From: Pseudomonadales bacterium
Lineage (GTDB): Bacteria > Pseudomonadota > Gammaproteobacteria > Pseudomonadales > Azotimanducaceae
Assembly (NCBI GenBank): GCA_028285415.1
Contig: JANQPF010000009.1
Coordinates: 744,001 to 808,000 of the forward strand
Direction: 5' to 3'
Length of the DNA stretch: 64,000 nt
In this document: piece after piece, positions 40,033-58,209 of the stretch
How the letters are laid out: every line of letters starts with the position of its first letter
Position numbering within the stretch: the stretch's first letter is position 1
The notes under the pieces: generated by a model
Told to the model about the DNA's origin: nothing
The model's database searches: none
The model's input: the letters and a program-made list of their open reading frames with translations, nothing else
Made by a program: the position numbers and the translations under genes

Positions 40033-40059
40033 AGGTTCTGCTCCATGGTTGTCGGGCAT

Positions 40060-40689: not shown

Positions 40690-40759
40690 CTGTGTTTACT
40701 TCCCTCTGCTCCGCCTGAATCCGCACAAATTTTGATTGCAACATCATCTTGTTTGCGCG

Positions 40760-40783: not shown

Positions 40784-40815
40784 TTGCCGACAAGAAATCA
40801 AGAGGGAGGTCAGCA

Positions 40816-41412
40816 ATGGACGCGTTGGAAGCGATGGAAACCTGTACCGCCATGCGGTACTTCAAAGAGGAGCCGGTGCCAAAGGCAGAGCTCGAGAAGC
40901 TCATCTACGCGGCGACCCGGGCATCCAACCCCGGCAACAGCCAGGGCTGGGAATTCCTGATCATTGACGATCCGGCCATCAAAGAGCCCGTCGGTGAAAA
41001 AGTGCTGGCAGGTATGGCGCCCTTCTTCGAAGCGCGCCCGGAAGGCAGAGACGGTGTCGAAGAACGCATGCTGGTGGGCGCTGAGCACCTGGCAGAAAAC
41101 TTCGCCAAGGTCCCGGCCTGGATCGTCTGCATGGCAAGAAAGGTGTATCCGCCCCACGATCCCCAGGAGAGCTTCATGCACTCCACCATCTATCCGGCCG
41201 CGCAGAATCTGATTGTCGCCGCCCGGGCAATGGGTATCGGCACCTGCTTCACGACGTTCCCCGGCAATGCCGAGCCCGAGATTCGCGAGCTCTGCAATGT
41301 GCCGGACGATCTGCACCTGTTCGTTTACGTTGCAGTCGGTTATCCGGAACGCGAATTCATGGCGGTCAAGCGCAAGCCGCTCGAGGACGTCATCACCTGG
41401 AATCGCTACTGA
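40816..41412 (+). CDS. Nitroreductase-family flavoprotein
   Basis: 198 residues with an AGGGAGG ribosome site. The FMN-binding signature is near the start, ALEAMETCTAMRYFKEEPVP (helix with the conserved R), followed by AATRASNPGNSQGWEFLII, where the RASNPGNSQ loop contacts FMN. IVAARAMGIGTCFTTFPGN near residue 135 and a C-terminal KPLEDVI complete the fold. It is a dimeric NAD(P)H oxidoreductase; substrates in the family include nitroaromatics, quinones and enones. The next gene, a large FAD/FMN reductase, starts 1 bp after the stop, so this is an operon. Confidence 0.9.
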   Translation: MDALEAMETCTAMRYFKEEPVPKAELEKLIYAATRASNPGNSQGWEFLIIDDPAIKEPVGEKVLAGMAPFFEARPEGRDGVEERMLVGAEHLAENFAKVPAWIVCMARKVYPPHDPQESFMHSTIYPAAQNLIVAARAMGIGTCFTTFPGNAEPEIRELCNVPDDLHLFVYVAVGYPEREFMAVKRKPLEDVITWNRY

Positions 41413-41413
41413 G

Positions 41414-43375: not shown

Positions 43376-43746
43376 GCGGGGAGACCATCAGCAGTTAGAA
43401 TGAACACATGTTTGCTGTGTTCTTCTTAGCTGCGGCGGTCGAGATCAGTGGTCCCGACGTCGAGCTATGCACACAATCCGTGCGCGAACTTTTCGCGGTC
43501 ATGGACAAACGAGCCGAGGCCCTCGACGAAGCCACCCGTCCCTCCACGCGCATGAATAGAACGTTTTCCGAGTCACGCGGCGGCGCGCGCGTCGAGCGGT
43601 ACAACAAAGAGATCAAGACACTCCGCCGGAAGCTCGAGGAGCAGCAGTGCACGGTCCGGTTTGTGCACTCGGACGAAGCAGACAGCCCACCTGAATAGAT
43701 TCCGGTTGCCGCCAGGAGCGCGCATGAGGAGATCGCAGCCAGGCGC
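43376..43746. other. 371-bp gap with one doubtful small ORF
   Basis: This lies between the OYE-like gene and the VOC gene. It contains the 96-residue frame described separately. Outside that frame (43376-43407 and 43699-43746) I see no terminator hairpin with U-run, no repeat and no RNA gene. Confidence 0.5.
43408..43698 (+). CDS. Possible small protein of unknown function
   Basis: 96 residues. It begins MFAVFFLAAAVEISG, a weak signal-like start with no positive charge, then is charged and helical with KEIKTLRRKLEEQQCTVRF, which could form a coiled coil. It has two cysteines and an acidic end. There is no recognisable ribosome site before ATG 43408 and no family resemblance. Kept because the amino-acid composition is protein-like and no other gene overlaps it, but it could be chance. 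Confidence 0.38.
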   Translation: MFAVFFLAAAVEISGPDVELCTQSVRELFAVMDKRAEALDEATRPSTRMNRTFSESRGGARVERYNKEIKTLRRKLEEQQCTVRFVHSDEADSPPE

Positions 43747-44187
43747 TTATCCGGCCACTTCTACCAGCTCGATCACGTTTCCTTCAGGGTCGTCGAAGAA
43801 GCAGAGCTTGACCCCGATCGAGCCGCTTGTGAGATCACGGTCCGACCGTAGCGTTGCACCATTGGCTTCTGCCTTTGCCAGCACCTCGTCGAGGTTGCTG
43901 CAGTAGAACGTCAGATACGCAATGCCCGTGCGTTCGGTCAGATAGTCCACCCGGGGCGTACGGTTACTCGGCACCGAGGGATGCATCAGCTTGATGACTT
44001 CGCCGTTCGGCGTCTCAAGCCACACGTTCACATACCCTTCGGCACTGGTCGTGAGACCCCGTGACAGCTCAGCGGCAATGTCCGCACGGCGGACTTCCGT
44101 GCAGCCGAGCACATCACAGTAAAACTGGTGCATCAATTCCAGGTTGAGCACCGGAATGCCCACCTCCATTGCAGCGATCTGATCCAT
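43747..44187 (-). CDS. VOC-superfamily (glyoxalase/bleomycin-resistance/dioxygenase fold) protein
   Basis: 146 residues from ATG 44187, which has GGGAGG five bases upstream; 44208 is rejected. Two beta-alpha-beta-beta-beta modules are visible. The first is AAMEVGIPVLNLELMHQFYCDVLGC and the second ERTGIAYLTFYCSNLDEVLAKAEANG, ending LCFFDDPEGNVIELVEVAG. The terminal glutamate of VIELVE and a histidine in the first module (MHPSVP region) are possible metal ligands. It may be an isomerase, lyase or ring-cleavage enzyme. It lies divergent from the DUF35-thiolase operon, which suggests a related pathway. Confidence 0.85.
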   Translation of the reverse strand: MDQIAAMEVGIPVLNLELMHQFYCDVLGCTEVRRADIAAELSRGLTTSAEGYVNVWLETPNGEVIKLMHPSVPSNRTPRVDYLTERTGIAYLTFYCSNLDEVLAKAEANGATLRSDRDLTSGSIGVKLCFFDDPEGNVIELVEVAG

Positions 44188-44249
44188 GAGGCCTCCCACC
44201 TTCGTCACGTGTTACAGTTTATGGTTCACGGGAAGGGGAACAAAGGCAA

Positions 44250-44675
44250 ATGGGCCAACAGGTTTCGGTGAATCCGTTTGTCCTCGACATCGACGGCGAC
44301 GAGCCGTGCCTCGTCGGCGGACGCTGCGTGGACTGCGGCAACGTCACCTTTCCGCGCTACGCCGGCTGCCCGAAGTGCGCGGGCTCCAACATCGAACCGA
44401 TTGAACTCGGGCGCGAAGGCACGCTGTGGGCCTGGACGGTGCAAGGGTTTCCACCCAAGTCGCCACCCTATCTCGGCGCCAACGATGCCAAAGACTTCCA
44501 TCCGTTCGGGGTCGGCTACGTCGAGTTACCCGAGGTGATTGTCGAGGCGCGCCTGACCGAGTCCGAACCTGGCAAGCTCAAAGAGGGGATGGCAATGAAG
44601 CTCACTATGGAATCCCTCTTCAAAGACGAAGAAGGCAACGACGTTGTCACCTACGCGTTTGCGCCGGCGGAATAG
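44250..44675 (+). CDS. DUF35 zinc-ribbon / OB-fold acyl-CoA-associated protein
   Basis: 141 residues. The rubredoxin-like zinc ribbon is GGRCVDCGNVTFPRYAGCPKCAGS (two CxxC pairs about 11 residues apart), then an OB-fold (GTLWAWTVQGFPPKSPPY and HPFGVGYVELPEVIVEARL). DUF35 proteins pair with thiolase-like enzymes; in steroid degradation they form ChsH2-Ltp2-type aldolase or hydratase complexes that bind CoA thioesters. Consistent with this, the thiolase-like gene follows after 14 bp and an enoyl-CoA hydratase after that. Confidence 0.92.
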   Translation: MGQQVSVNPFVLDIDGDEPCLVGGRCVDCGNVTFPRYAGCPKCAGSNIEPIELGREGTLWAWTVQGFPPKSPPYLGANDAKDFHPFGVGYVELPEVIVEARLTESEPGKLKEGMAMKLTMESLFKDEEGNDVVTYAFAPAE

Positions 44676-44689
44676 ACTGGAGAAAACTG

Positions 44690-45847
44690 ATGCAAAGTGA
44701 TGTGGCCATTGTCGGCATCGGCATGCACCCTTTCGGGCGCCACGAGGGCGTGACGGGCATGGAGCAGGGCGCCCACGCCGTGCGCGAAGCCTGCAAAGAT
44801 GCAGGGATCAGCTGGCAGGATCTGCAGTTTGCCGTTGGCGGCAGCGCCGCCGCCGGCAATCCGGACACCATGGTTTCCATGCTGGGCCTCACGGGGCTGC
44901 AATTCGTCAACGTCAATAACGGCTGTGCCACCGGCGGGACGGCACTCTCGACAGCCTACAACACCATCAAAGCCGGCATGGCAGACCTTGGCATTGCCAT
45001 CGGTTTCGACAAACACCCGCGCGGCGCTTTTGCGAGCGACCGGCCGGTGCATCCGGTCGACGGCGGCCGGGACTGGTACGGCGGCAGCGGCATGGCCATC
45101 AATCCACAGTTCTTCGCGATCAAGATCAACCGCTACATGGGCAAGCACGGCATTTCGCATCAGACGCTGGCGCGGGTAGCCGCCAAGGCGACACGCAACG
45201 GCTCAATGAATCCCATGGCGTGGCGCAAGCAGCCGTTCAGCGAGGACGAGATCCTGCAATCACAGATGCTCGCCTATCCGCTGACGCAGTACATGTTCTG
45301 CTCTCCGGGCGAAGGCGGCGTTGCGCTTGTGCTCAGCCGGTCAGATCAGGCTCACAAGTACACCAACACGCCGATTTATCTGAATGCTGCCGTCATGCGC
45401 TCGCGCCGTTTTGGCAGTTTCGAAGTCAAAGCTTCCTGGCTGCCGAAGGACGATGAGGTGGGCCCCACCGCGGACGCCTCGAGGGCTGCCTTTGAGCTGG
45501 CCGGCATCGGGCCTGAGGATGTGGACGTTGCCCAGCTGCAGGACACCGAATCGGGCGCTGAGATCATGCACATGGCTGAGAACGGTTTCTGCGAAGACGG
45601 TGAACAGGAGTTCATGCTCGAGCGCGGTGAAACCGAAATCAACGGACGCCTGCCCATCAACACCGACGGCGGCTGCATTGCCAACGGTGAGCCAATCGGT
45701 GCGTCCGGTTTGAGACAGGTCTACGAAAACGTGCTGCAACTCAGAGGCGGAGCCGGACCCCGCCAGGTGCCGAACGATCCGAAGGTGGCCTACACCCATG
45801 TCTACGGTGCGCCGGGAATCAGCGGTGTTACCATACTTTCAAAATAA
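44690..45847 (+). CDS. Thiolase-like protein (SCP-x/Ltp2 type), probably an acyl-CoA aldolase subunit
   Basis: 385 residues from ATG 44690 (TGGAG upstream). The thiolase fold is plain: SDVAIVGIGMHPFGRHEG at the N-terminus, VNNGCATGGTALSTAYN with Cys79, and INTDGGCIANGEPIGASGLRQVYE. But the GHP histidine is Glu334 (NGEP), and the C-terminal CxG cysteine motif is replaced by HVYGAPGISG. Canonical thiolytic chemistry is therefore unlikely. Ltp2-like proteins also depart from GHP at this point and act as retro-aldolases with a DUF35 partner. A similar carbon-carbon cleavage on a side-chain CoA ester is my inference. Confidence 0.88.
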   Translation: MQSDVAIVGIGMHPFGRHEGVTGMEQGAHAVREACKDAGISWQDLQFAVGGSAAAGNPDTMVSMLGLTGLQFVNVNNGCATGGTALSTAYNTIKAGMADLGIAIGFDKHPRGAFASDRPVHPVDGGRDWYGGSGMAINPQFFAIKINRYMGKHGISHQTLARVAAKATRNGSMNPMAWRKQPFSEDEILQSQMLAYPLTQYMFCSPGEGGVALVLSRSDQAHKYTNTPIYLNAAVMRSRRFGSFEVKASWLPKDDEVGPTADASRAAFELAGIGPEDVDVAQLQDTESGAEIMHMAENGFCEDGEQEFMLERGETEINGRLPINTDGGCIANGEPIGASGLRQVYENVLQLRGGAGPRQVPNDPKVAYTHVYGAPGISGVTILSK

Positions 45848-45867
45848 CGTTCACGAGAGGGGAACCC

Positions 45868-46659
45868 ATGGACAAGCAATTCGGTGACGTCCACGTCAGC
45901 GACGCGGGCGATTTTGTTGCCGTCGCGGAAATTCAGCGCGGTCCGAACAACTTTTTCGATCAGGATCTGATCGCCAGTCTGGCCGACGCGTTCGAAGAAC
46001 TGGACGAAGATCCGAGCTGCCGCGTCATTGTGCTCTGCTCCGAAGGTAAACACTTCTGCGCGGGCGCCAATTTCGGCTCGCGGGAAGGCCAGGAGGAGCG
46101 CGCGCAGCGAACCGCCGAAGACGGCAATCCGCTCTATCGGGAAGCGGTGCGACTGTTCCGCAACAAGAAGCAGGTCATTGCCGCTGTGCAAGGGGCTGCG
46201 GTGGGCGGCGGCTTCGGGCTTGCGATCATGCCGGACTTTCGCGTGGCCTGCCCGGAAGCCCGCTTCACGGCAAACTTCGTGAAGCTGGGGTTCACTCCCG
46301 GCTTTGGCCTTACGCACACCCTGCCGCGCATCATCGGCGAGCAGGCAGCCACCGACCTCTTTTACACCGGTAAACGCATCGGCGGCGAAGAAGCCCATGC
46401 GCTCGGCATTGTCGATCGGCTGGTGCCACTGGCTGAGGTGCGCGAAGCAGCCATTGCTTACGCCAAAGAAATTGCCGAGAACGCGCCCCTGGCGCTCATT
46501 TCTCTGCGTGAGCAGATGCGGGGTGATCTCGCGGATGCGGTGCAGAAAGCCACCGACCGGGAAGGCTTCGAGCAGTTTCACCTGCAGCGTACGAACGATC
46601 ACAAGGAAGGTGTCAAAGCGGTGGCCGAGAGACGACCCGGAGACTTCACCGGGACCTGA
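45868..46659 (+). CDS. Enoyl-CoA hydratase/isomerase-family protein with altered catalytic residues
   Basis: 263 residues, crotonase fold. The oxyanion holes are intact: KHFCAGANFGS and GAAVGGGFGLAIMPD. Where classical hydratases have the first catalytic Glu (E144 in the rat enzyme) this protein has Phe137 in ANFVKLGFTPGFG, and the second (E164) is Asp163 in AATDLFYTG. It still binds acyl-CoA but probably does not hydrate by the standard mechanism; isomerase, hydrolase or retro-aldol chemistry are options. It is the third gene of the DUF35-thiolase operon, 20 bp after the second. Confidence 0.88.
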   Translation: MDKQFGDVHVSDAGDFVAVAEIQRGPNNFFDQDLIASLADAFEELDEDPSCRVIVLCSEGKHFCAGANFGSREGQEERAQRTAEDGNPLYREAVRLFRNKKQVIAAVQGAAVGGGFGLAIMPDFRVACPEARFTANFVKLGFTPGFGLTHTLPRIIGEQAATDLFYTGKRIGGEEAHALGIVDRLVPLAEVREAAIAYAKEIAENAPLALISLREQMRGDLADAVQKATDREGFEQFHLQRTNDHKEGVKAVAERRPGDFTGT

Positions 46660-46694
46660 AAAGAGGGCGAGCAACAACGCCCTGAACCGCTCTG

Positions 46695-47477
46695 TCAGCG
46701 CTCCGGAGCTTGCAGCGTCACTCCGCCGTCTACAATCAATGTCTGTCCGGTGACATAGCGGGATAAATCGGAGACAAGAAACAGCACGGCGTTGCCGATA
46801 TCCCAGCCACTACCCTCTATCTGCAGTGGTGCCGCCAGTCTTCGTTTTTCGCGTTGTTCATCCGTCATGCCGCCCGCCGTCACCATCGGGGTGTATACGG
46901 GACCGGGTGCCACGCAGTTGACCCGGATGCCGTCAGCGGCATGATCCACCGCCATGGCGCGCGTCAGTGCAATTACCGCCCCTTTGGAAGTGGAGTAAGC
47001 CGTGAGCCCTCGCGGTCGCAATGCGGATATGGATGAGACGTTCACAATCGCGCCGCCACCGCGTTCCCGCATGACGGGAATGACATGCTTTGACATCAGG
47101 AACATGGAATTCACGTTCACACGCATCACCGTGTCCCACCGCGCCGGGTCCTCATCAACCACGGAATGACGGCTGCCGATACCCACGTTGTTGTCGAGAA
47201 CATCCACCCCGCCGAACGTCTCGCAGGCATGGTCGACAACGCGGCGGCAATCTTCCTCACGCGTGACGTCCGCTGCACAGGCGTTCGCCATCCCGCCTTC
47301 CTCATGAATCATCTCGACGGTACGCCGCGCCAGGTCCTCGTCCCGGTCGACCGCAATCACCCGGGCACCCGCGCGAGCGAACAAGATCGCCGCCGCGCGC
47401 CCATTACCGATGCCCTCGCCGCTGGCACCGGCGCCGGAGACGATCGCCACTTTGTCTTTCAAGCCGGTAATTTCCAT
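46695..47477 (-). CDS. Short-chain dehydrogenase/reductase
   Basis: 260 residues from ATG 47477 (GAGAGG upstream). A longer frame to 47672 is non-coding. Nucleotide loop VSGAGASGEGIGNGRAA, then DVLDNNVGIGSR in place of NNAG, catalytic serine in NVSSISALRP, and the Tyr/Lys motif in TAYSTSKGAVIALTRAM. It ends RYVTGQTLIVDGGVTLQAP, the standard SDR end. NAD(P)-dependent oxidation or reduction of an alcohol/ketone. It is the last gene of the minus-strand run that begins at 52199, 43 bp after the aminotransferase. Confidence 0.9.
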   Translation of the reverse strand: MEITGLKDKVAIVSGAGASGEGIGNGRAAAILFARAGARVIAVDRDEDLARRTVEMIHEEGGMANACAADVTREEDCRRVVDHACETFGGVDVLDNNVGIGSRHSVVDEDPARWDTVMRVNVNSMFLMSKHVIPVMRERGGGAIVNVSSISALRPRGLTAYSTSKGAVIALTRAMAVDHAADGIRVNCVAPGPVYTPMVTAGGMTDEQREKRRLAAPLQIEGSGWDIGNAVLFLVSDLSRYVTGQTLIVDGGVTLQAPER

Positions 47478-47520
47478 TGCTTCGAAACCTCTCTCAGCTA
47501 CCCTGGCAAATGGATGCGAG

Positions 47521-48783
47521 CTAAGCCGCGTCTCCCGCAGCCACCCGATCACACGCCAGGCGCAGGCGTCTGGCGGCCTCGGCAAAATCACTCTCCGGCG
47601 TCCACGGGTAGGCGATGCGTACGTGTTCCGACTCACCCAGCGGCGTAAATCCTCGACCGTTGTTGACCGCAATACCTTCGCTGACGGCGGTACGCCAGAG
47701 CAACTCGCGATCGATGCCGGGTTTCAAGTGCGCCCAGATATAGAAACCGCCTTCCGGCACCTGCCAGTCCATGAACGCGGCGAGCCCCGCCTGCAGCATC
47801 GCGTCGTTCATCAAGTCTCGTTTGCGTTTGTAGATATCACGCATCTTGCCAAGGTGAGTGTCGTAGTGGCCGCTCAAGAGGAACTCGCCAAACGTGCGCA
47901 AGCCAAACTGGTTCTGGCCCATGGCAAAGCGCATGCGGCCGAAAAGCGACAGCAGATCGGGGCGGGCATGGATATAACCCACGCGGATGCCGGTTGCGAC
48001 AGTTTTGGAGAACGAACCCACCGTGATGACCCCCCAGCCTTCCGCCATCGCGGATAGCGCCGCAGGCGGCGGCTCATCGAACCAGAGCTCGCGATACGCT
48101 TCATCGTCCAGCACCATCGCATCGTGCTGACAAGCCAGCTCCAGGAGACGCACACGTCGGGCTTCGGACAGCGTCACGCCCGAGGGATTCTGAAACGCCG
48201 AGATGGTGTAGATGAGCTTGGTCCGCTTTCCCGCCGCGGCAAGCTCATCGAGAAGTCTCTCGAGCGCGGCCACATCCATGCCCTCCCCGTCCATGGGCAC
48301 GCAGCGCACTTCAGCCCCGACGCCGCGGAAATTGTGCAGCGTTCCCATATAGGTAGGGCTTTCGGCAATGATCACATCACCCGCATCGATCAGCGAGCGC
48401 ACAACCAGGTCGATGGCGCCTGCTGAACCGTTGGTGAGCTGAAACCAGTCCGGCTCAACGGCAAACCCTTCGAGAGCGCTGCGCCGTTCGGCTAGCCAGG
48501 CACGAATGCCTTCAGGGCCCTGCCCGAATCCGTAGCGAAGCGCCAGGTCTCCCGGCCGCGACAGCACCACGTCAGCCGCGTTGGCCAGCGCTTCCTTGGG
48601 CAGCGATTCCGCATCAGGAATACCGACGGCCAGGTAAAGCAGATCCCGCTTGGGTTCAACGTCCTTTGGCAGATCCCACTCGCCGGGGGTCCCGAACAAC
48701 GGTGCGGAAAAACGATTGGCCACGTCCAGCGGCGTGCGCTCGCCCCACTTTGCGGCAAGCTGTTGTGCAACTTCGTAACTCAT
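47521..48783 (-). CDS. PLP-dependent aminotransferase (fold type I, class I/II, 2-aminoadipate/MocR-like)
   Basis: 420 residues. LYLAVGIPDAESLP and LRYGFGQGPEGIRAWLAERR open the family pattern. LTNGSAGAIDLVVRSLIDAGDVIIAESPTY binds the cofactor phosphate, IYTISAFQNPSGVTLS and VLDDEAYRELWF give the Asn and Asp/Tyr, and TVGSFSKTVATGIRVGYI carries the Schiff-base lysine in SFSKT. It resembles 2-aminoadipate transaminase and the effector half of MocR regulators, without a winged helix. It moves an amino group to or from a keto acid. It overlaps the TetR gene by 4 bp (ATGA). Confidence 0.9.
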   Translation of the reverse strand: MSYEVAQQLAAKWGERTPLDVANRFSAPLFGTPGEWDLPKDVEPKRDLLYLAVGIPDAESLPKEALANAADVVLSRPGDLALRYGFGQGPEGIRAWLAERRSALEGFAVEPDWFQLTNGSAGAIDLVVRSLIDAGDVIIAESPTYMGTLHNFRGVGAEVRCVPMDGEGMDVAALERLLDELAAAGKRTKLIYTISAFQNPSGVTLSEARRVRLLELACQHDAMVLDDEAYRELWFDEPPPAALSAMAEGWGVITVGSFSKTVATGIRVGYIHARPDLLSLFGRMRFAMGQNQFGLRTFGEFLLSGHYDTHLGKMRDIYKRKRDLMNDAMLQAGLAAFMDWQVPEGGFYIWAHLKPGIDRELLWRTAVSEGIAVNNGRGFTPLGESEHVRIAYPWTPESDFAEAARRLRLACDRVAAGDAA

Positions 48784-49400
48784 GACTTTGCTTTATCCAG
48801 ACTCTCGAGCAGTTGTTTGACCTGAAGCTCAGCGCGCTTCAGCGAAAACGTTTTCGGATCGGCAAGGTATAGCAAAGTCAGTCCGCGCAGAAGTCCGAGA
48901 ATTGTCGCTGCGGCTTCGCGGACTACCAGGTCTTCACGCAGCTCGCCGTTTTCCACCCCTTCCTGAATGAGGTTTCCGACCGCGCGAATGGTCTGCTTGT
49001 TGAAGTCGGCAATCTCACCGCGCATCTCCGGTACCGCGCCGAGGGATTCCCCCATGACGAGATAGAGCGCCCGCAGATGGGGATTGTTACGGGACAGCCG
49101 GCTCAGGAACACTTCGACGTAGCGCTCGAGCCCGGCCACCACCGTTTCGGTCTTGGACACTTCAGTCATCGACTCGCGGGTGAACGATCGATAAATCTCA
49201 TCCAGCACCGCACGCAGAAGCGCCTGCTTGGAACCGAAGCGGTTACTGACGAGGCCGCCGGTGTACCCCGCGCGGTTGCCGATGTCATTGAGGGTGGTGC
49301 GCACGTATCCCTGCTCCGCGAAAAGCTCAATGGCTGCCTGGATCATGCGCCCGTCCGATTCGGCCTTGCGCTCAGCCTGAGTTCGGCGCGCGGTGTTCAC
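48780..49400 (-). CDS. TetR-family regulator inside the catabolic operon
   Basis: 206 residues. DNA-binding region MIQAAIELFAEQGYVRTTLNDIGNRAGYTGGLVSNRFGSKQALLRAVL. The recognition helix carries an unusual GGLVSNRFGSK. The C-terminal domain has VNGELREDLVVREAAATILGLLRGL, typical of TetR regulators of lipid or xenobiotic genes. It overlaps both the upstream monooxygenase gene and the downstream aminotransferase gene by 4 bp, so it is made with the operon it probably controls. A likely site is the repeat region at 52240-52271. Confidence 0.9.
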   Translation of the reverse strand: MNTARRTQAERKAESDGRMIQAAIELFAEQGYVRTTLNDIGNRAGYTGGLVSNRFGSKQALLRAVLDEIYRSFTRESMTEVSKTETVVAGLERYVEVFLSRLSRNNPHLRALYLVMGESLGAVPEMRGEIADFNKQTIRAVGNLIQEGVENGELREDLVVREAAATILGLLRGLTLLYLADPKTFSLKRAELQVKQLLESLDKAKS

Positions 49401-50551
49401 AGGCCCGGCGCCTCGTCATCGAGGCCCATCATGACGCGCCCGGCAAGCTCCATCACCGTCTCTGAGACCATCATGTGCTGCGAGGCCACGTGGACGTCAC
49501 GGAAGTGCTGCTGCAGACAGGAGGTTTCGAACACGGAAGAGCCGCCCACGATGGAGTACATGCGGTCGATCACCTTGACTGCGGTATCCATCGCATGGAC
49601 GTTCGCCGTTCTCAGTGCCCGCCGGTCGTGAATGTCCGGCTCACGGTCCTGGATCTTCTCCCAGATCTCATCGATAGTGTTGTAAAAAAGCGCCCGTGCG
49701 GCGCGCAGCTCCGTATCGACGACGGCCACGTCGCGGTGCAGGATGGGCCGCTGGGAAAGCGTCCGCTGGCTGCCCTGGGGCGTTTTTTCCTTCGCAAGCC
49801 CGATAACTTCCTGGATCGAAGCCCGAGCCATGCCCATGGCGATTGCGCCACAGGGCGTCGAGAGAATACCGAAGCGAGGGAAACGGAAAATCGGCTCATG
49901 CGCGTACGTCCTTGCACCGCTCAGGCTGCCCATGCGTTCTGCCGGCACCCAGACGTCTTCGGCGACATAGTCGCTGGAGCCCGTGCCACGCAGCCCGGAT
50001 ACGTGCCAGTTGTCCATGATCTCAATCTCTTCGGGCTTGAACACCGCCCGATTCACTGCCTCATCGCCGGCTACGGGATCGCCGTGCGCATCCACCTCCG
50101 TCAGCGCACCGCAAATCCAGTGCGCGTTGTGACAGCTGGAACCCCACTTCCAGTGTCCGTTAATCAGGTAGCCGTCCTGCCCATCGCGGGGTTGACGGAT
50201 TGCCGTGCCGCTCGGCGCAAAGACGCTGCTGACGATCACCCGGGGATCATGCGCAATCCGGTCGCGCTGCTCGGGCGGCAGCGACGCAACGTGAAGATGA
50301 GAGGTGTAACAGATGAACGTACACCAGGCGGCGGAGCCGTTGCCCGTTGCCAGCGTCTCAACCAGCTCACAGGCGGCGCGCGGGCCGATGTTTAGCCCGC
50401 CGGTTGCCTCCGGGGCGCAGGCCCTATAGAACCCCTCCCCCGCCAGACGATCCGCGAGCTCCTGGGGCAGGCACCGGTTGTCGTCGATCTCGCGGGACCG
50501 CTCGATCAGCTCGGGCACATACGACGCGGCTTTCTCAACCAATGGATGCAT
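49397..50551 (-). CDS. HsaA-like acyl-CoA-dehydrogenase-fold flavin monooxygenase
   Basis: 384 residues, GGAG five bases before ATG 50551. N-terminal helices (MHPLVEKAASYVPELIERSREID, EGFYRACAPEATGGLNIG), beta domain with YLINGHWKWGSSCHNAHWICGA and DNWHVSGLRGTGSSDYVAEDVWVP. The C-terminal bundle ends SCLQQHFRDVHVASQHMMV. The WKWGSxCxxAxW stretch in place of a CoA site marks the group-D FMNH2 hydroxylases such as HsaA, which need a separate flavin reductase. It probably hydroxylates an aromatic or N-containing substrate. It overlaps TetR by 4 bp; the TauD gene is 11 bp upstream. Confidence 0.9.
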   Translation of the reverse strand: MHPLVEKAASYVPELIERSREIDDNRCLPQELADRLAGEGFYRACAPEATGGLNIGPRAACELVETLATGNGSAAWCTFICYTSHLHVASLPPEQRDRIAHDPRVIVSSVFAPSGTAIRQPRDGQDGYLINGHWKWGSSCHNAHWICGALTEVDAHGDPVAGDEAVNRAVFKPEEIEIMDNWHVSGLRGTGSSDYVAEDVWVPAERMGSLSGARTYAHEPIFRFPRFGILSTPCGAIAMGMARASIQEVIGLAKEKTPQGSQRTLSQRPILHRDVAVVDTELRAARALFYNTIDEIWEKIQDREPDIHDRRALRTANVHAMDTAVKVIDRMYSIVGGSSVFETSCLQQHFRDVHVASQHMMVSETVMELAGRVMMGLDDEAPGL

Positions 50552-50562
50552 GACTTCTCCGT

Positions 50563-51381
50563 TCAGATGATGGGCGTGCGACGCAGCGTGCGCGGCTCTT
50601 CTTTCGCAAACGGCAGCCGTGCGTGGGCCACGAGCAGGTTGTGCCAGACAATGAGATCGTCCGGCTGCCAGCGGTGGCGATAGGTGCAGATTTCCTGCGC
50701 ATGCGCCTCGCCAAACGCGGTCAGCTCGTTGTAGAAGGCTATACCCTCGTCACGATCGATCCCTTCGAAGTCCAATGTGCTCTGCGAGTGCAGCAGCGCC
50801 CGTCTGCCCGTCGCGGGATCCTGCCAGACCCAGGGTCTCACTTTCGTCGGCGACCCCGGCGTCGGCTCGGTGTCCCAATCCCGATACTCCCGGGCGGCTA
50901 TTTTCGTGTGGTCGTAAAGGTGTTTGCACTGGATGCCGTCCACCCGGGTTTTCATCTCCGGCGGCAGCGCATCGTAGAAAGCCACGGCACTGCGGAAATG
51001 GGTTTCGCTTCCCGAGGCTGGCACTTCAATGCCGTAGAGCATCAGCGCCTTCAAAGGCGGGTCGTAAAACAGGTGATCGTGATGGAAGTGGATGGCGCCT
51101 TTGCCGAGCACGCCATCGGGACGCACGTTGGAGACGTACTGCATGCCCGGCTTTTTTGACTGCCCCGGCGCACCGGCACGGTCGGTGACCTCACCAATGG
51201 CGCTGGCCAGCGCGTACTGATGTTCTTCCTCGAAACCCGCGACGTTGGTTTTAACCAGGTTGTACTCGTTGAAGAGATCAACGAATGCGGCAAGCACGAC
51301 GTCTTGCAGGAAATCAGCTGCTTCGAGATCGAATACCTCGACACCCAGGCCACACTCGAGCGGCTGCGAATGCAGAATCAT
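50563..51381 (-). CDS. TauD/TfdA-family Fe(II)/2-oxoglutarate dioxygenase
   Basis: 272 residues from ATG 51381. A GTG at 51384 is also possible; the stop TGA of the upstream gene shares the base, as TGATG. The metal triad is HFHHDHLF (HxD near residue 99) and the distal His in LIVWHNLLVAHARLPF, with the 2-oxoglutarate arginine in EPRTLRRTP at the end. The middle is normal for the family: LMLYGIEVPASGSETHFRS and ALPPEMKTRVDG. It oxidises a substrate with O2 and 2-oxoglutarate, often cleaving C-S, C-O or C-N bonds after hydroxylation. It belongs to the six-gene operon. Confidence 0.9.
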   Translation of the reverse strand: MILHSQPLECGLGVEVFDLEAADFLQDVVLAAFVDLFNEYNLVKTNVAGFEEEHQYALASAIGEVTDRAGAPGQSKKPGMQYVSNVRPDGVLGKGAIHFHHDHLFYDPPLKALMLYGIEVPASGSETHFRSAVAFYDALPPEMKTRVDGIQCKHLYDHTKIAAREYRDWDTEPTPGSPTKVRPWVWQDPATGRRALLHSQSTLDFEGIDRDEGIAFYNELTAFGEAHAQEICTYRHRWQPDDLIVWHNLLVAHARLPFAKEEPRTLRRTPII

Positions 51382-52199
51382 CACCCACCTACCTTTTCCG
51401 CAATGGCGGCGTAGTTGTCGAGGACGGGCAAAACCTTGTCTGCGCCTCTGGACGGGATGCCCATGATGATCCGGTCGGCACCCGCCTCGGCGTACACTTC
51501 CGCCTGGCCCGGGTCGAGGAGGAGCACCGTCACGGATAGATCCTCACGCCCTTCCCCCCTGGCCTTCTCGTTGAACTCCCGAACATGGTCAGGCAGGTCA
51601 GGGACATCCGAACGCGGCAGCCAGCCGTCGGCATAACGGAAGGCGCGGTTGAAAGCGCCGGGATAGGTACCGCCGACCAGCACCGGCGGGTTGGGTTTCT
51701 GCCGTGGCTTGGGCCAGGCATCCATGGGGCCGAAGTTGACGAACTCGCCCGCGTACTCGGGCACGTCGTCACGCCATATGGCCTGCATCGCCTCGACCCG
51801 TTCGCGCATGAGCTTGAAGCGGCGACCCGGATCCGTGGTGCCGTGGTTGGCCATTTCTTCGATGTTCCAGCCCGCGCCGATCCCGAGCACAAAACGCCCG
51901 TTGCTGATGACGTCGAGGCTCGCCACCAGCTTGGCCGTCTGTATCGGATCACGCTGGATGATGAGACAGATTCCTGTGCCGAGCAGCACGTTCGAAGGTA
52001 CCGTGGCGGCCGTTGCGAGGTACACGAACGGGTCCATCGCCTCGTAGTACATCCGCGGCAGCTCGCGGTCCGTGGATTTCGGCAGATGGGAGTGCTCGGC
52101 AATGAACAGCGAATCCAGCCCGCGGGACTCGAGCTCGGGAACGAGCTCCGGTCCGGAAATCGTGTTTTCTGTTGCAAACAACAGTGTCCCGACCTTCAT
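51381..52199 (-). CDS. LLM-class flavin monooxygenase (F420-type / luciferase-like), first gene of the operon
   Basis: 272 residues with a strong GGAGGAG ribosome site. TIM-barrel pattern: MKVGTLLFATENTISGPEL, RGLDSLFIAEHSHLP, VLLGTGICLIIQRDPIQTAKL, GRFVLGIGAGWN, then PPVLVGGTYPGAFNRAFRYADGWLPRS. The layout is that of the TIGR03619-like F420 group, although F420 use cannot be told from FMN by sequence alone. It may open the pathway by adding oxygen to its substrate. Its start is 104 bp from the divergent deacetylase gene. Confidence 0.9.
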   Translation of the reverse strand: MKVGTLLFATENTISGPELVPELESRGLDSLFIAEHSHLPKSTDRELPRMYYEAMDPFVYLATAATVPSNVLLGTGICLIIQRDPIQTAKLVASLDVISNGRFVLGIGAGWNIEEMANHGTTDPGRRFKLMRERVEAMQAIWRDDVPEYAGEFVNFGPMDAWPKPRQKPNPPVLVGGTYPGAFNRAFRYADGWLPRSDVPDLPDHVREFNEKARGEGREDLSVTVLLLDPGQAEVYAEAGADRIIMGIPSRGADKVLPVLDNYAAIAEKVGG

Positions 52200-52239
52200 T
52201 GTCTTCTCCTCCTCAGACTTTCATGGCAATATGAGAACG

Positions 52240-52271
52240 CTAAGTTAGTTTACAGCCACTAAGTAAGTTAC
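52240..52271. promoter_or_regulatory. Direct and inverted repeats in the divergent promoter region (candidate TetR operator)
   Basis: CTAAGTTAGTTTAC (52240-52253) is repeated as CTAAGTAAGTTAC (52259-52271), starts 19 bp apart. Within them TTAGT (52245-52249) and ACTAA (52258-52262) form an inverted repeat. The stretch is far more AT-rich than its surroundings and sits in the 104-bp gap between two divergent operons. Confidence 0.6.
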
Positions 52272-52303
52272 ACATCTTCGATTGAAATGGAAAGGTGAAG
52301 GGA

Positions 52304-53152
52304 ATGGATCAGAAAATCAGCGTGTGCCTGTCTTTCGACTTCGATGCGATATCCATCTGGGTCGGGCCGAAGGGGACACGTTCACCCAACCTGATCTCGC
52401 GCGGGGAGTTCGGCGCACGGGTCGGCGCCGAGCGCATGCTGAAACTGCTGACCGACGAGGGCATACCGAGCACCTGGTTCATACCGGGTCACACCATCGA
52501 CACCTTTCCGGAAATCTGCCGCGAGATTGCCGACGCCGGGCACGAAGTGGGCTACCACGGCTACTGCCACGAAGGTCCCACCTCAAAGCGTCCGTTCGAG
52601 GAGGAACGCGACATCCTGCGCCGCGCCATCGCATGCATCGAGCGCATCAGCGGCAAGGCCCCGGTAGGCCACCGGTTGCCCGGAGGAAATCTCGGGGAAC
52701 GCTGGACTAACCTCCTCATCGAGCACGGGATCCGCTACGACAGCTCCATGGCCCCACACGACTTTGCGCCGGTCTATCACCGGCTTGGTGACGTACCGCG
52801 CACAGACGGTCCCTACGAGTTCGGCAGGGAAGTTGATCTCGTCATCCTGCCGTTCGATTGGAACATGGACGACGCGCCCTACTTCAGCTACGAGCCCGGG
52901 TCGGGCCGTCCGGGTCTGCGTTCACCGGCGGAAGTGCTGGAGATCTGGAAGGACGAGTTCGACTACCTGTACCACCGCATCGGTGAAGGCGTGTACGTCC
53001 TGACCATGCACCCGCAAACGACGGGCAAAGGCAGCCGCATGCTCATGCTGGAACGGCTGATCGGGCACATCAAGGAACACGAGCACATCGAGTTCAAAAC
53101 GCTGGCGGACGTGGCGGACGAGTTCCGCGCTGCCAATCCCATTGCAAGCTGA
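52304..53152 (+). CDS. NodB-fold polysaccharide deacetylase / PuuE-like amidohydrolase
   Basis: 282 residues from ATG 52304 (AAAGG upstream); GTG 52295 is less likely. The NodB motif 1 acids are in VCLSFDFDAISIW. Motif 2 HxxxxH is HEVGYHGYCHE, motif 3 arginine is in VGHRLPGGNLGE, and VYVLTMHPQTTGKGSRM holds the late histidine. The length and the HPQ...GKGSRM block are closer to the cytoplasmic PuuE allantoinase and HpPgdA-like group than to secreted chitin deacetylases; there is no signal peptide. It probably hydrolyses an amide or cyclic amide. It heads a plus-strand set, followed after 11 bp by an SDR. Confidence 0.9.
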   Translation: MDQKISVCLSFDFDAISIWVGPKGTRSPNLISRGEFGARVGAERMLKLLTDEGIPSTWFIPGHTIDTFPEICREIADAGHEVGYHGYCHEGPTSKRPFEEERDILRRAIACIERISGKAPVGHRLPGGNLGERWTNLLIEHGIRYDSSMAPHDFAPVYHRLGDVPRTDGPYEFGREVDLVILPFDWNMDDAPYFSYEPGSGRPGLRSPAEVLEIWKDEFDYLYHRIGEGVYVLTMHPQTTGKGSRMLMLERLIGHIKEHEHIEFKTLADVADEFRAANPIAS

Positions 53153-53163
53153 CGGAGCATCCC

Positions 53164-53943
53164 ATGACCAACTTTTTCGACCTCAGCGGCAAAGTAGCGC
53201 TTGTCACCGGCGGCAGCCGCGGCATTGGCCTTGCGATTGCCGATGCGTTCGCACAGGCGGGCGCAGACGTGGCCATCTGGGACATTGACGCTGAGCGTAA
53301 CAACGCGGCCAAAGCGCAGCTCGAAACTCATGGCGTACGCGCCATGGCGCTGAACGTCGACGTCCGCGATGAGCTTGCCGTCATGAGCGGCGTCAACGAG
53401 GTCGTTGCGACGCTGGGGCGTATCGACGTGCTCATGGCCAACGCGGGCGTCAGCGGCAACGTACCCTCTTTTCTGGATCTGAGCCTCGAGCGATTTCGTG
53501 AAGTCACCGCGGTCAACGCCGACGGCTGGTTCCTGACCTGCCGCGAGGTGCTGAAGCACATGAAAGAACGCGCGGACAACGGTGATCCCGGCGGCTCCAT
53601 CATCGGTCAGTCGAGCCTGCAGGCGCTGCACGGTGCGCCGGGCAACGAAGCCTATGCGGCCAGCAAAGGCGCGGTGCTCGCCATGATCAAGACTATCGCC
53701 GTCGAGTTCGGCCGCTATGGCGTGCGCGCCAACGCAATCATGCCCGGATTCATCAAGACTGATATGAACAAGCGCAACCACGACAACGTGGCGCTCTACG
53801 AAAAAGTCATCAAGCGCATGCCAATCCGGCGCTGGGGCGAACCGGAGGACGTGGCAGGGCTCGCGGTATATCTGGCATCGGACGCCGCCCGCTACCACAG
53901 TGGGACGGCCATCGAGCTGGATGGCGGCTACGCCGCGATGTGA
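53164..53943 (+). CDS. Short-chain dehydrogenase/reductase
   Basis: 259 residues with GGAG six bases before the ATG. TGGSRGIGLAIADAFA is the nucleotide loop, VLMANAGVSGN the NxAG motif, SIIGQSSLQALHG holds the catalytic serine, EAYAASKGAVLAMIKT the Tyr/Lys pair, and the end is YHSGTAIELDGGYAAM. NAD(P)-dependent; substrate unknown. It lies 11 bp after the deacetylase gene and 97 bp before the HDAC-fold gene, in the plus-strand arm of the divergent locus. Confidence 0.92.
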   Translation: MTNFFDLSGKVALVTGGSRGIGLAIADAFAQAGADVAIWDIDAERNNAAKAQLETHGVRAMALNVDVRDELAVMSGVNEVVATLGRIDVLMANAGVSGNVPSFLDLSLERFREVTAVNADGWFLTCREVLKHMKERADNGDPGGSIIGQSSLQALHGAPGNEAYAASKGAVLAMIKTIAVEFGRYGVRANAIMPGFIKTDMNKRNHDNVALYEKVIKRMPIRRWGEPEDVAGLAVYLASDAARYHSGTAIELDGGYAAM

Positions 53944-54039
53944 CGGGGAAACTTGATACGCGCGCCTCGCGGGAAACAGCATCGACACCAGGGATTGGCC
54001 GTTGCGCTAATATGTGGCTGCAGCAGGAGAAACCACTCG

Positions 54040-54954
54040 ATGCATATTTACAGTCATCCGATCTACGCCAGACACGAGGTTGCGCCCGGCCACCCGGAAC
54101 GCCCGGAACGGATCACCTACCTGCTCGAACACCTCGAGGCCACCGGATTCGCCGCCGACCACACCGCGCGCGTACCAACCCCCGCCTCAACTCAGGATTT
54201 GACGCGGGCGCACAACGCCGAGCATCTCGCCTTCATCCAGCAGATGGCGCCAGCCGAAGGTGTCGTGCCGCTCGATCCCGATACGTGGATGGGAACGTCG
54301 AGCCTCGAGGCTGCTGAGATGGCGTCAGGCGCGCTTTGCAACGCGGTAGAGGATGTCACCGGCGGTACAACCCGACGCGCGTTCTGTGCCGTACGGCCGC
54401 CGGGACACCATGCCGAACGGGACGCGGCCATGGGATTCTGTATCTTCAACAGCGTGGCGGTGGGGGCCCTGAAAGCGCTGGCGGAAACTGATATTGAACG
54501 TGTCGCCATTCTCGACTTCGGCGTGCATCACGGCAACGGCACCGTGGACATTTTCCGCGACAACCCCGCAGTGCTCGTCTGTTCGAGCTTCCAGCATCCG
54601 CACTACCCGAACCGGCTGTTCGACATCGACCGCCCCAACATCGTGAACTCACCGATGCCCGCCGGCGCTGATGGCAATTTGTTCCGGGCAATCATCGAGC
54701 GCGACTGGTGGCCTGCGCTCGAGGCACATCAGCCGGAGCTGATTTTCGTATCAGCCGGGTTCGACGCCCACGCCCGGGACCCGCTGGCGAACATCAACCT
54801 CGTGGAGGATGACTTTGCCTGGGTGACCCGCGGCATCGTCGCCATGGCGGATCAGTTCAGTGAGGGCCGCATCGTGTCCACCCTCGAAGGCGGCTACGAT
54901 CTAAGGGCGCTGGCGGTAAGCGCCCATGCCCACCTCGAGGCACTTGCTGAGTAA
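54040..54954 (+). CDS. Histone-deacetylase-fold amidohydrolase (acetylpolyamine/acetoin-utilisation type)
   Basis: 304 residues from ATG 54040 (AGGAG about 10 bases upstream). An in-frame extension to 53953 is non-coding. HDAC motifs in order: GHPERPERITYL near the start, RPPGHHAERDAAMGFCIFN with the tandem histidines, AILDFGVHHGNGTVDIF with the Zn-binding Asp and His, FVSAGFDAHARDPL with the second Asp, and LEGGYDLRAL with the catalytic-loop GGY. Bacterial members remove acetyl or longer acyl groups from polyamines and other small amides. Its position after a second deacetylase is striking. The convergent enoyl-CoA hydratase ends 5 bp away. Confidence 0.93.
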   Translation: MHIYSHPIYARHEVAPGHPERPERITYLLEHLEATGFAADHTARVPTPASTQDLTRAHNAEHLAFIQQMAPAEGVVPLDPDTWMGTSSLEAAEMASGALCNAVEDVTGGTTRRAFCAVRPPGHHAERDAAMGFCIFNSVAVGALKALAETDIERVAILDFGVHHGNGTVDIFRDNPAVLVCSSFQHPHYPNRLFDIDRPNIVNSPMPAGADGNLFRAIIERDWWPALEAHQPELIFVSAGFDAHARDPLANINLVEDDFAWVTRGIVAMADQFSEGRIVSTLEGGYDLRALAVSAHAHLEALAE

Positions 54955-55776: not shown

Positions 55777-56817
55777 CTATCCGGCCGCGTCTTCGCTGCC
55801 GCCGTGGATGCCAATTGTCAGTTTGCCATGGACATCGATGCTGCCCCGGTACATACCCTGCGTATTGAACGGCATGGCAATGTTGCCCGCAGGATCCATG
55901 ATGATGACCCCACCGGTTCCGCCGTTGGGTAACAATTCGTCAAACAAGACCTGCCGCCCCGCCTCACGAACGTCAAGATTCCCGTAGCGCATCCGCGCGC
56001 AGATGTCGGCCGCCACGTTGTAGCGAATGAAATACTCGCCGTGGCCGGTGGCCGACACCGCGCAGCTGCGATTGTCCGCGTACGTCCCGGCTCCGATGAC
56101 GGGCGAGTCACCCACCCTGCCCCAGCGTTTAGCCGTCATGCCGCCTGTGGAAGTGGCGGCAGCAAGATTGCCGTTGCGATCCAGCGCGACCGCGCCGACC
56201 GTGCCCCATTTGTGCGGTGCAACCAGGTCCGTCAGCGTCGCTTGCCCGTTGCGCTCACGCTTGACGCGCTCGAGCGCCTCGCGACGCCGCGGAATTGTGA
56301 ACGTATCGTTGGTCACCGGCACCATGCCGATACTCCGGGCAAAAGCCTCCGCGCCGGCACCCGTCAACATCACGTGTTCCGATTGATCCATCACCGCCCG
56401 CGCGAGCCGTATCGGGCTCTCGACCGTGCTTACCCCGGCCACGGCACCGGCATTGAGATCGGCACCCGACATGATGCTGGCATCGAGCTCGTGCCGGCCA
56501 TCCCAAGTCATCACCGCACCAACGCCGGCGTTGAAGAGCGGCGAGGCTTCCATGAGCGTCACCGCCGCGACCACCGCATCCAGACTCGTGCCGCCAGCAC
56601 GCAAGCGCTCATGCCCCGCACGGAGCGCAGCAGTCAGCGCATCCTCGTAGGCGCTGCGCTCGGTGTCCGTCATCTTCCGTATGTCGATCGTGCCAGCGCC
56701 GCCGTGAATGGCGATGGCCACCGGCGCATCGTCCGACCAGACCGGCGTCGACCAGCCCCAGGCAAACGCAACGGCAAGCCACAGTGCTAAGCTCGTGACG
56801 CTGACAGAATGTCTCAA
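55777..56817 (-). CDS. iaaA: Isoaspartyl peptidase / L-asparaginase (periplasmic Ntn-hydrolase)
   Basis: 346 residues from TTG 56817, supported by GGGGGA six bases upstream and by the signal peptide it creates (SVTSLALWLAVAFAWGWSTPVWSDD). AIAIHGGAGTID is the family start, the two subunits separate before Thr206 in HKWGTVGAVALDRNGNL, and STGGMTAKRWGRVGDSPVIGAGTYAD with SATGHGEYFIR forms the binding pocket. It cleaves isoaspartyl dipeptides or asparagine after self-processing. It begins only 12 bp from the serine hydrolase gene on the other strand. It is followed on the minus strand by the PaaG-like gene, 28 bp away. Confidence 0.94.
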   Translation of the reverse strand: MRHSVSVTSLALWLAVAFAWGWSTPVWSDDAPVAIAIHGGAGTIDIRKMTDTERSAYEDALTAALRAGHERLRAGGTSLDAVVAAVTLMEASPLFNAGVGAVMTWDGRHELDASIMSGADLNAGAVAGVSTVESPIRLARAVMDQSEHVMLTGAGAEAFARSIGMVPVTNDTFTIPRRREALERVKRERNGQATLTDLVAPHKWGTVGAVALDRNGNLAAATSTGGMTAKRWGRVGDSPVIGAGTYADNRSCAVSATGHGEYFIRYNVAADICARMRYGNLDVREAGRQVLFDELLPNGGTGGVIIMDPAGNIAMPFNTQGMYRGSIDVHGKLTIGIHGGSEDAAG

Positions 56818-56829
56818 GGTGTTCCCCCA

Positions 56830-58209
56830 ATGTTGTTTGTACGCCGGCTTCTGGTTCTCCTATCGCTCGGCACGTTGCTCCCCGCAGCGCTCGCTCATGC
56901 GCAGCTGCCCGAGCGGCTTGCCGGCGAGCTGACCGAAATACAGCGCGCCCATAACATTCCCGTATTAGCTCTGGCATTGCAAATCGATGGCCGCGTAGTC
57001 TCCAAAGTGATGGGAGGAACGCCCGCTACGCCGCTCCGCTGGGGTTCGATCACCAAAACCATCACCGCATTGACCGTCCTCGAGCTCGCCGCCCGGGATC
57101 AGGTGGACCTGCAGGCGCCGCTTTCAAACTACGTGCCCGTCGAGCACTGGGCCAATCCCTGGCGCGCGAGTCATCCGGTTCGCGTCATCGATCTGCTGGA
57201 GCTGCGGGCAGGTTTTCCCGACCTCTCCGCCGCGGAGTTCAATTTCAACGAGCCCGTCGATCTCGAGACGGCGCTGGCGCTCAACCCCGCCCACCGGATC
57301 ACGCACTGGCCCCCCGGCATCCAGCACGGCTACTCGAATCTCGCGCCGGGGCTGACGCAGCTCCTGATCGAGCGCGTCACCGGCAAACCCTACGCAAGCG
57401 TGGCGAGGGAGCTTGTCTTCGAGCCGGTGGGCATGGCGGACGCAGGGTTTGCTCCCGATACCCGGTTACCGGGCGGCTTCGAGGACGACGGCACCACGCC
57501 TATTCCGTACTGGCACATGACGTTTCCGGCATACGGTGCGCTGAACGCGCCTCTCAACGACATGATCAGGCTCCTCGACGCGCTGCAGTCGCTGCCGGCA
57601 GCAAAGGCGGCGCGCCTGTATCGGCCAGGCGGGCGCCAACTCGCGCCGGACTTCACCTTCGATTACGCGGCGGGACTCTATCCGCGCGTGCGGCAGGGGC
57701 GCATCTGGCATACCCACGGCGGAGATGCCGACGGCTACCGGTCGAGGCTGGCAACCTTGCGCCCGGAGCAGAGGGCATACATTGTCAATATCAACGTCGA
57801 CAATCCGGCGGTGCTGCGCCGCATCGAACGCCTGCTGGAAGCGGCACTGACTCGGGATATGCCGGCAGTCCCACCGCCTGCAACCGTTGAGGTAAACCTC
57901 GACGGCCTGGCCGGCACCTACTACCCATCGTCCGCGCGTTTCGGCATTGACGCCTGGCAGTCAGGCAGCAGGCCAACGGCAACCGTCGCCGCCAGGGGCA
58001 GCACGCTGACCTTCACACGCAACGGTCGCACCACCACGCTGTGGCCGGTGGCACCCGGACAGTTCCGGCGGGACCACGATCCCGCTGCAACCGTCGTCTT
58101 CGTTCGCGATGAGGACGTCCTCTACCTGCAGGGGGAGCTCGGCAACTACGCGCGCGTCGACGCCTGTCCAGATTTCATGCGTGCAATCCCGCAGTGCGAT
58201 CAACGATAA
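56830..58209 (+). CDS. Periplasmic serine hydrolase, beta-lactamase / penicillin-binding-protein-like
   Basis: 459 residues from ATG 56830 with AAGGTG eight bases upstream. Signal peptide MLFVRRLLVLLSLGTLLPAALAHAQ. The SxxK motif is SITK (Ser73, Lys76), the second motif YxN is HGYSNLAPG, and the third is HTHGGDADGYRS in place of KTG, as in class-C-like esterases (EstB, D-aminopeptidases). A C-terminal domain (about residues 355-459) adds a small beta-barrel. It probably hydrolyses an ester or amide. It is head-to-head with the isoaspartyl peptidase gene and followed after 28 bp by the second HsaA-like gene. Confidence 0.9.
   Translation: MLFVRRLLVLLSLGTLLPAALAHAQLPERLAGELTEIQRAHNIPVLALALQIDGRVVSKVMGGTPATPLRWGSITKTITALTVLELAARDQVDLQAPLSNYVPVEHWANPWRASHPVRVIDLLELRAGFPDLSAAEFNFNEPVDLETALALNPAHRITHWPPGIQHGYSNLAPGLTQLLIERVTGKPYASVARELVFEPVGMADAGFAPDTRLPGGFEDDGTTPIPYWHMTFPAYGALNAPLNDMIRLLDALQSLPAAKAARLYRPGGRQLAPDFTFDYAAGLYPRVRQGRIWHTHGGDADGYRSRLATLRPEQRAYIVNINVDNPAVLRRIERLLEAALTRDMPAVPPPATVEVNLDGLAGTYYPSSARFGIDAWQSGSRPTATVAARGSTLTFTRNGRTTTLWPVAPGQFRRDHDPAATVVFVRDEDVLYLQGELGNYARVDACPDFMRAIPQCDQR

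Follow-up and report, generated by a model that had tools for sequence, protein, structure and literature searches.

The window analysed here, a stretch of 64,000 nucleotides (G000:C2:744001-808000) from the 5.97-Mb genome of a Pseudomonadales bacterium, carries two sets of putative catabolic genes, each with its own TetR gene, between an EAL-domain gene that ends at 38741 and an HDAC-fold amidohydrolase gene that starts at 54040. In the lower set, six genes follow one another on the minus strand: an LLM-class oxidoreductase of the F420-type family TIGR03619 (51381–52199), a TauD-family 2-oxoglutarate/Fe dioxygenase (50563–51384; Pfam TauD), a putative flavin-dependent monooxygenase resembling HsaA and Rv3094c (49397–50551; family matches), the TetR1 repressor (48780–49400; family matches), a class I aminotransferase (AAT) resembling LysN and kynurenine aminotransferases (47521–48783), and SDR1 (46695–47477; Pfam), the last gene of the probable TetR1 operon. 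Divergent from these, on the plus strand, lie a NodB-fold C–N hydrolase that is HP0310/PuuE-like and putatively a cyclic imide or lactam hydrolase (52304–53152), its tandem partner SDR2 (53164–53943) and the HDAC gene (54040–54954). These nine genes had been listed in a first-pass annotation made from the letters alone, and open reading frame positions together with Pfam and NCBIfam family matches agree with it in strands, coordinates and families. The same is true of the three junctions that it described as overlapping (4 bp each at LLM/TauD, HsaA/TetR1 and TetR1/AAT) and of the 104-bp region shared by the divergent genes, which runs from LLM to the NodB ATG at 52304. The other spacings are 11 bp (TauD/HsaA), 43 bp (AAT/SDR1, taking 47477 as the SDR1 start), 11 bp (NodB/SDR2) and 96 bp (SDR2 to the likely HDAC start); the long frames listed for SDR1 and HDAC start too early, and 47477 and 54040 are their likely starts.

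The borders drawn around these nine genes have to be moved, since the block extends leftwards as far as 38752 and includes a second TetR with a palindrome of its own. To the left of SDR1 it adds a cytochrome P450, probably of the TetR2 regulon (38752–40059, minus strand; Pfam p450), the TetR2 repressor (40060–40689, minus; Pfam TetR_N), a nitroreductase-family protein (NTR; 40816–41412, plus) with weak BluB and FbiB-C-terminal matches, all below cut-off, and a flavin reductase of the OYE/FadH-BaiCD type (41414–43375, plus; Pfam Oxidored_FMN), which matches the mycofactocin-OYE_2 and BaiCD models below cut-off. There follow a VOC/glyoxalase-fold protein (43747–44208, minus; Pfam), a DUF35/ChsH2-type OB protein (44250–44675, plus; Pfam OB_ChsH2_C), an SCP2-type thiolase that is its likely partner (44690–45847, plus; Pfam Thiolase), with SCP2-thiolase and a benzoylsuccinyl-CoA thiolase subunit as nearest solved structures, and the crotonase ECH1 (45868–46659, plus; Pfam ECH_1).

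At the other end, the HDAC gene lies outside the cluster. It had been counted as one of two deacetylase folds in a single pathway, but it is a core gene of the genus: it has a match in 37 of the 40 genus genomes (own genome included, E <= 1e-60), whether or not they carry the block, with 51–62% identity outside its own genome, and is thereby ruled out as a pathway member. In 13 of 14 HDAC loci from other genomes the gene ECH2 is next to it, or at most an SDR-like gene or a short gap away, and the fourteenth (L125) stops at a contig edge. The core EAL-domain gene occupies the other flank of HDAC in 4 of 7 longer loci and is absent in 3, and in the window the whole of 38752–53943 lies between the two. 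We read it as an accessory, probably catabolic block lying between two core genes, EAL and HDAC. No integrase was noticed among its annotated genes, and base composition does not distinguish it from its surroundings. Co-transcription of HDAC with NodB-SDR2 in the window genome, across the 96-bp gap, is possible.

Four of the 40 genus genomes, the same ones for each gene, have close orthologues of NodB (82–90%), SDR2 (72–78%) and OYE (81–87%): the window genome (G000) and three relatives, G352, G353 and G354. The genus-wide cut-offs were E <= 1e-90 for SDR2, 1e-150 for OYE, 1e-60 for AAT and 1e-100 for HsaA. The LLM has close orthologues (84–87%) in 2 of 205 other genomes of the family, G353 and G354, and hence none in G352. 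AAT is found in three of the genus genomes (G000, G353 at 83% and G355 at 74%) and in none of the other 37. HsaA homologues are present in 18 of the 40, at 68–70% in G353 and G354 and at 55–61% in 15 others, with none in G352, and the gene is less specific to carriers of the block than NodB, SDR2 and OYE.

The arrangement of these genes is partly kept and partly reshuffled. In G353, orthologues of NodB, LLM, TauD, TetR1 (77%), AAT, HsaA and SDR2 (68–90% overall) lie within about 9.2 kb in a different order; the genes listed at first, minus HDAC, are thus largely a recurring set. NodB and SDR2 stand in tandem in G000, G352 and G354, NodB and LLM are divergent in G000 and G353, and LLM precedes TauD in G000, in G354 and, with a second LLM gene (LLM2) in between, in G353. 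The pair TauD-HsaA is shared by G000 and G354, TetR1-AAT by G000 and G353, and NTR-OYE, with NTR immediately before OYE, by G000, G352 and G354. As for the upper set, a single G352 contig carries OYE (85%), NTR (85%), TetR2 (63%), P450 (79%) and an MFS transporter, G354 has TetR2 (63%), NTR (82%) and OYE (81%), TetR2 being close to OYE-NTR in both genomes, and G353 has OYE (87%). The G353 OYE is split across contig ends, with residues 1–617 on C279 and the last 32 on C29, the contig that also bears the seven lower-set orthologues; considering that these parts are complementary and terminal, the upper and lower sets most likely form one locus there.

Two palindromes recur with these genes. The first, TTAGTTAGT-N8-ACTAACTAA (52241–52266), precedes NodB and/or LLM in four genomes; its copy in the window, the putative TetR1 operator TAAGTTAGT-N8-ACTAAGTAA, agrees at 16 of 18 positions, as against 15 between NodB and LLM in G353, 17 before NodB in G352 and 17 before LLM in G354. 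This pattern matches one place in the window and none in 100 shuffles, and other loci, about 1.6 Mb in all, have no further site at 14/18 or better save overlapping copies of the same ones. The second palindrome, TTTAGAAC-NN-GTTATAA (40763–40779), precedes the P450 or nitroreductase genes of OYE loci in four genomes: in the window the putative TetR2 operator TTTAGAACACGTTATAA lies 36 bp before NTR, and in the relatives the motif precedes P450 genes, at two sites in G352 and also in G353 and G354. At 13/15 or better it occurs nowhere else in about 1.76 Mb of other loci. The patterns were derived from these same sites, so that the perfect match in the window (15/15 positions) holds by construction; the evidence for operators is their recurrence at matching promoters together with their absence elsewhere, against background sets that overlap one another and include a few short protein-alignment rows. 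From position, TetR1 and TetR2 would act at the first and second palindrome, respectively. Control of the first-listed genes by a single TetR-type switch, as first proposed, is plausible, since the shared-promoter palindrome recurs in relatives; the block as a whole has a second TetR and a second palindrome. A promoter scan of the divergent region gave no sigma-70 site.

The NodB-fold enzyme offers the clearest pointer to the chemistry. Its nearest solved structures by sequence are HP0310 (E 4.6e-62), 3rxz and PuuE allantoinase, and the best Foldseek match of its structural model is again HP0310 (3qbu, E 9.5e-19); given the low confidence of the model (mean pLDDT 62.8), only the best fold matches were used. 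On the fold alignment the two proteins are 36% identical. The zinc ligands and nearby residues given for HP0310 in the available part of PMC3084791 (D12, D14, H86, H90 and H247) all align with D14, D16, H87, H91 and H238 of the window protein (alignment A1) and are invariant in 6 of 6 sequences, so that the Asp-Asp-His-His-His metal/catalytic set of cyclic imide hydrolases of the HP0310/HxnM type is kept. According to the same text, HP0310 did not act on the usual polysaccharide substrates, and its ligand is probably a small molecule. The accessible portion of PMC9304392 names HP0310 as the closest known structural homologue of the fungal cyclic imidase HxnM, puts HxnM at 64.2% identity to a Pseudomonas putida cyclic imide hydrolase homologue, and has HxnM open an imide that HxnW, an SDR, forms once the OYE HxnT has carried out a reduction. 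The NodB-fold enzyme is best read as one that opens a nitrogen-containing ring, in line with the first-pass annotation, which had suggested the stepwise opening of a nitrogen-containing or N-acylated compound. A 44% homologue is encoded on plasmids of two iprodione-degrading Paenarthrobacter strains, beside hydantoinase/oxoprolinase and amidohydrolase genes on one and a nitrilase-family gene on the other. Since hydantoin-ring cleavage in the iprodione pathway is assigned to ddaH (PMC9869045, as far as its available text goes), one might guess that the plasmid homologue is ddaH. The window genome also has a second NodB-type gene, about 44% identical to the first, beside a crotonase-like gene (L073:9994-10800; G000:C2, about 698 kb), and relatives of the first at 44–46% are found in G348, G352, G353 and G356.

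Among the oxidoreductases, the LLM scores 213.1 against a cut-off of 166.9 in TIGR03619, a family named as F420-dependent, and the genome has an F420 operon, npdG-cofE-cofD-cofC (L132, G000:C20, about 7.3–10.6 kb), each gene of which is above the NCBIfam cut-off in at least one model. Together these make a reductase or dehydrogenase role about as likely as that of a monooxygenase, and the LLM may be a reductase rather than an oxygenase; the earlier count of three oxygenases is to that extent not upheld. The HsaA-like protein, whose nearest solved structures are Rv3094c and then HsaA, HpaH-C2 and XiaF, scores 164.5 against the cut-off of 450 of NF045629 (HsaA 3-HSA monooxygenase) and is best read as a flavin-dependent monooxygenase. 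In four of four loci taken from the 15 other genomes (L139–L142), an LLM gene stands immediately beside the HsaA-like gene, with a gene that resembles a CoA ligase by eye close to the pair; the two may possibly form a two-component monooxygenase. The motifs in TauD that we take to be of the iron and 2-oxoglutarate types, judged by eye, are kept in three orthologues. The nearest relatives of AAT are multi-substrate, aminoadipate and kynurenine aminotransferases, with a distant likeness to MppQ, and the P450 comparison gave no pointer to a substrate.

We suggest that the block is a two-regulon catabolic cluster for an N-heterocycle that is opened via a cyclic imide or lactam, a reading to which we give an even chance. 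TetR2 probably governs the upper set of P450, nitroreductase and OYE-type reductase, and TetR1 probably governs the lower set, in both directions from one operator (LLM-TauD-HsaA-TetR1-AAT-SDR1 and NodB-SDR2). The substrate would be an N-heterocycle that probably bears a carbon side chain. Its hydroxylation would fall to the P450, the TauD dioxygenase and the HsaA-like flavin monooxygenase, while the OYE/NTR pair and the F420-type LLM would reduce ring double bonds or provide reduced cofactor. SDR2 could then oxidise a carbinol of the ring that adjoins the nitrogen, giving a lactam or cyclic imide whose C–N bond the NodB-fold zinc hydrolase would cleave, opening the ring; the freed amino or keto acid would pass to the aminotransferase, and the carbon skeleton to the crotonase and the DUF35-thiolase pair. 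In a narrower form, which we consider doubtful, an aromatic or unsaturated ring would first be hydroxylated and reduced by P450, OYE, nitroreductase and F420-linked LLM, then oxidised to a cyclic imide by the SDR and opened by a NodB-fold imidase, making the route an independently assembled bacterial counterpart of the logic of the fungal hxn regulon, with F420 chemistry and two TetR regulons added.

Several observations weigh against a single N-heterocycle pathway. The NodB-fold protein scores 73.8 bits, far below the 424.6-bit cut-off of the PuuE family TIGR03212, so that family membership does not fix its substrate, and no amidase, molybdenum hydroxylase or flavin reductase is among the annotated genes of the block. 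The loci read from the relatives gave neither DUF35 nor the thiolase nor a close orthologue of SDR1, a result that covers those loci and not whole genomes. Before NodB in G354 there is only a weak variant of the first palindrome, and TetR homologues of 43–45% identity, present in G000, G353, G354 and G355, could bind that palindrome instead of TetR1. By a tree of the core HDAC gene (35 rows, G347 and G349 being left out because of an in-frame stop), the four carriers may be one clade (p-AU 0.26), which would weaken the argument from co-occurrence. Because the tree leaves a single clade possible, we regard co-occurrence as only suggestive and the reshuffling of the genes as the stronger sign of a functional link. 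The remaining points bear equally on the proposal that two or three unrelated modules adjoin by chance, NodB-SDR2-OYE-NTR on the one hand and AAT-ECH1-VOC (with or without LLM2 and a ligase) on the other, which we judge unlikely. G355 has AAT, ECH1 (90%, adjoining AAT), VOC (65%, adjoining ECH1 and AAT) and LLM2 without close NodB, SDR2 or OYE, and AAT may on that account serve another task. Conversely, G352 and G354, both fragmented assemblies, have NodB, SDR2 and OYE without AAT; G352 also lacks a close LLM and HsaA, and searches of the two genomes turned up no close orthologue of TetR1. Against chance adjacency, both sets share one locus in the window and most likely in G353, and one palindrome lies between NodB-SDR2 and the AAT-containing operon.

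A rather improbable alternative is the degradation of a terpenoid- or steroid-like substrate, either carbocyclic or without a ring, that bears one amide or N-acyl group, with NodB as the deacylase and AAT taking the freed amino acid. A DUF35-thiolase, a crotonase, P450s and an acyl-CoA ligase are typical of terpenoid and steroid side-chain oxidation. The first three are encoded in the block and the ligase in G353, and the OYE matches the BaiCD and mycofactocin models, albeit below cut-off. This sits poorly with HP0310, which, in what is available of PMC3084791, has no open polysaccharide groove and is inactive on the N-acetyl substrates tried, and with the G352 OYE contig, where there are several further C–N hydrolases, among them, within a few kilobases of OYE-NTR, an amidase and a further pair of PuuE-like genes. 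That the block is instead a biosynthetic cluster tailoring a secondary metabolite seems to us highly improbable: P450s, the MppQ-like trait of AAT, TetR control and patchy distribution would suit it, but no synthase, synthetase or other scaffold-building enzyme is among the annotated block genes, and the relatives have degradation genes of the CoA type and MFS transporters.

Beyond the genus, the gene order had been proposed as something to look for across genera, and its conservation there was not borne out: within the searches made close relatives were seen in one genus only. An LLM scan of a contig set in which each of 84,980 species is represented by a single genome, a short-pattern search that reaches close relatives, returned 63 loci, two at 83–87%, whose contigs correspond to G353:C29 and G354:C6, and 61 at <= 49%; the two close ones (L010 and L011) come from Pseudomonadales metagenome-assembled genomes. 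When 14 window proteins were compared with the 63 loci by tblastn, a second block was not found; there were generic SDRs, second LLMs and a thiolase, and otherwise L023 (NodB-like, 36%, 7.5 kb off) and L022 (TauD-like, 25%). Outside its own genome, AAT had no match among 369 genomes of the class (E <= 1e-100) or on plasmids (1e-60). NodB was matched in 4 of 244 genomes of the order at E <= 1e-30, its own and three at 37–41%. OYE gave 167 plasmid records, every one below 60% identity, and the best of them (47%, L193) had no other block genes nearby except a 33% SDR.

An LLM-type enzyme takes part in an N-heterocycle pathway in the pyr system for pyridine degradation of Arthrobacter, and we know of no imidase–SDR pair or OYE there. 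In its set of enzyme kinds the block resembles the nicotinate (hxn) regulon of Aspergillus nidulans (PMC9304392, in its available part), which likewise has a NodB-fold imidase, HxnM, acting after an SDR, HxnW, as well as the OYE-type HxnT, flavin monooxygenases and a 2-oxoglutarate dioxygenase; the trait kept in the window is that a NodB-SDR2 tandem and an OYE are encoded in one block. Unlike in hxn, the NodB and SDR2 genes of the window are bacterial and lie next to each other, the OYE belongs to the long FadH/BaiCD type, and there is no molybdenum nicotinate hydroxylase or NicC-like enzyme among the annotated block genes; the window adds a P450, an F420-type LLM, an aminotransferase, a thiolase and TetR switches. 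Since the block lacks the first steps of hxn and adds others, we do not file it as a member. HP0310 (3qbu), at 36% identity, is the nearest solved structure to the window NodB and has the metal/catalytic residues in common with it; the cyclic imide hydrolase of P. putida YZ-26, as presented in PMC9304392, is a further system of this kind. With the Paenarthrobacter iprodione/hydantoin genes (PMC9869045, as far as its available text extends) the window shares the 44% NodB homologue on two plasmids, the other genes being unlike. The Mycobacterium tuberculosis cluster Rv3093c-Rv3094c-Rv3095 is alike in its Rv3094c-like monooxygenase beside a predicted flavin reductase and a repressor; unlike Rv3093c, the window LLM falls in TIGR03619, and the available part of PMC9904262 does not attribute the rest of the window set to that cluster. 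Our literature searches, which covered open-licence papers and are weak evidence, found no bacterial description of such a catabolic route. The block thus presents a defined gene set with two candidate operators for an apparently undescribed bacterial catabolic route, and, if the imide route were true, it would be a bacterial case of ring saturation combined with imide hydrolysis, as reported from the nicotinate pathway of fungi (PMC9304392, same part), in a member of a Pseudomonadales genus that carries F420 genes.

Some minor observations concern the surroundings. The G352 contig with OYE-NTR (L147, G352:C486) carries an amidase, two PuuE-like deacetylase-fold genes, an Amidohydro_3 protein and a molybdopterin oxidoreductase. 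A two-subunit molybdenum hydroxylase lies 6–7 kb from SDR2-NodB in G354 (L119:77-2733, G354:C150), with CoA-transferase III and MmgE/PrpD genes between. In the window, at 55777–58209, two genes adjoin ECH2, one resembling by eye an isoaspartyl peptidase gene and the other that of a protein with a serine beta-lactamase fold, and the same order is seen in G351 (L123).

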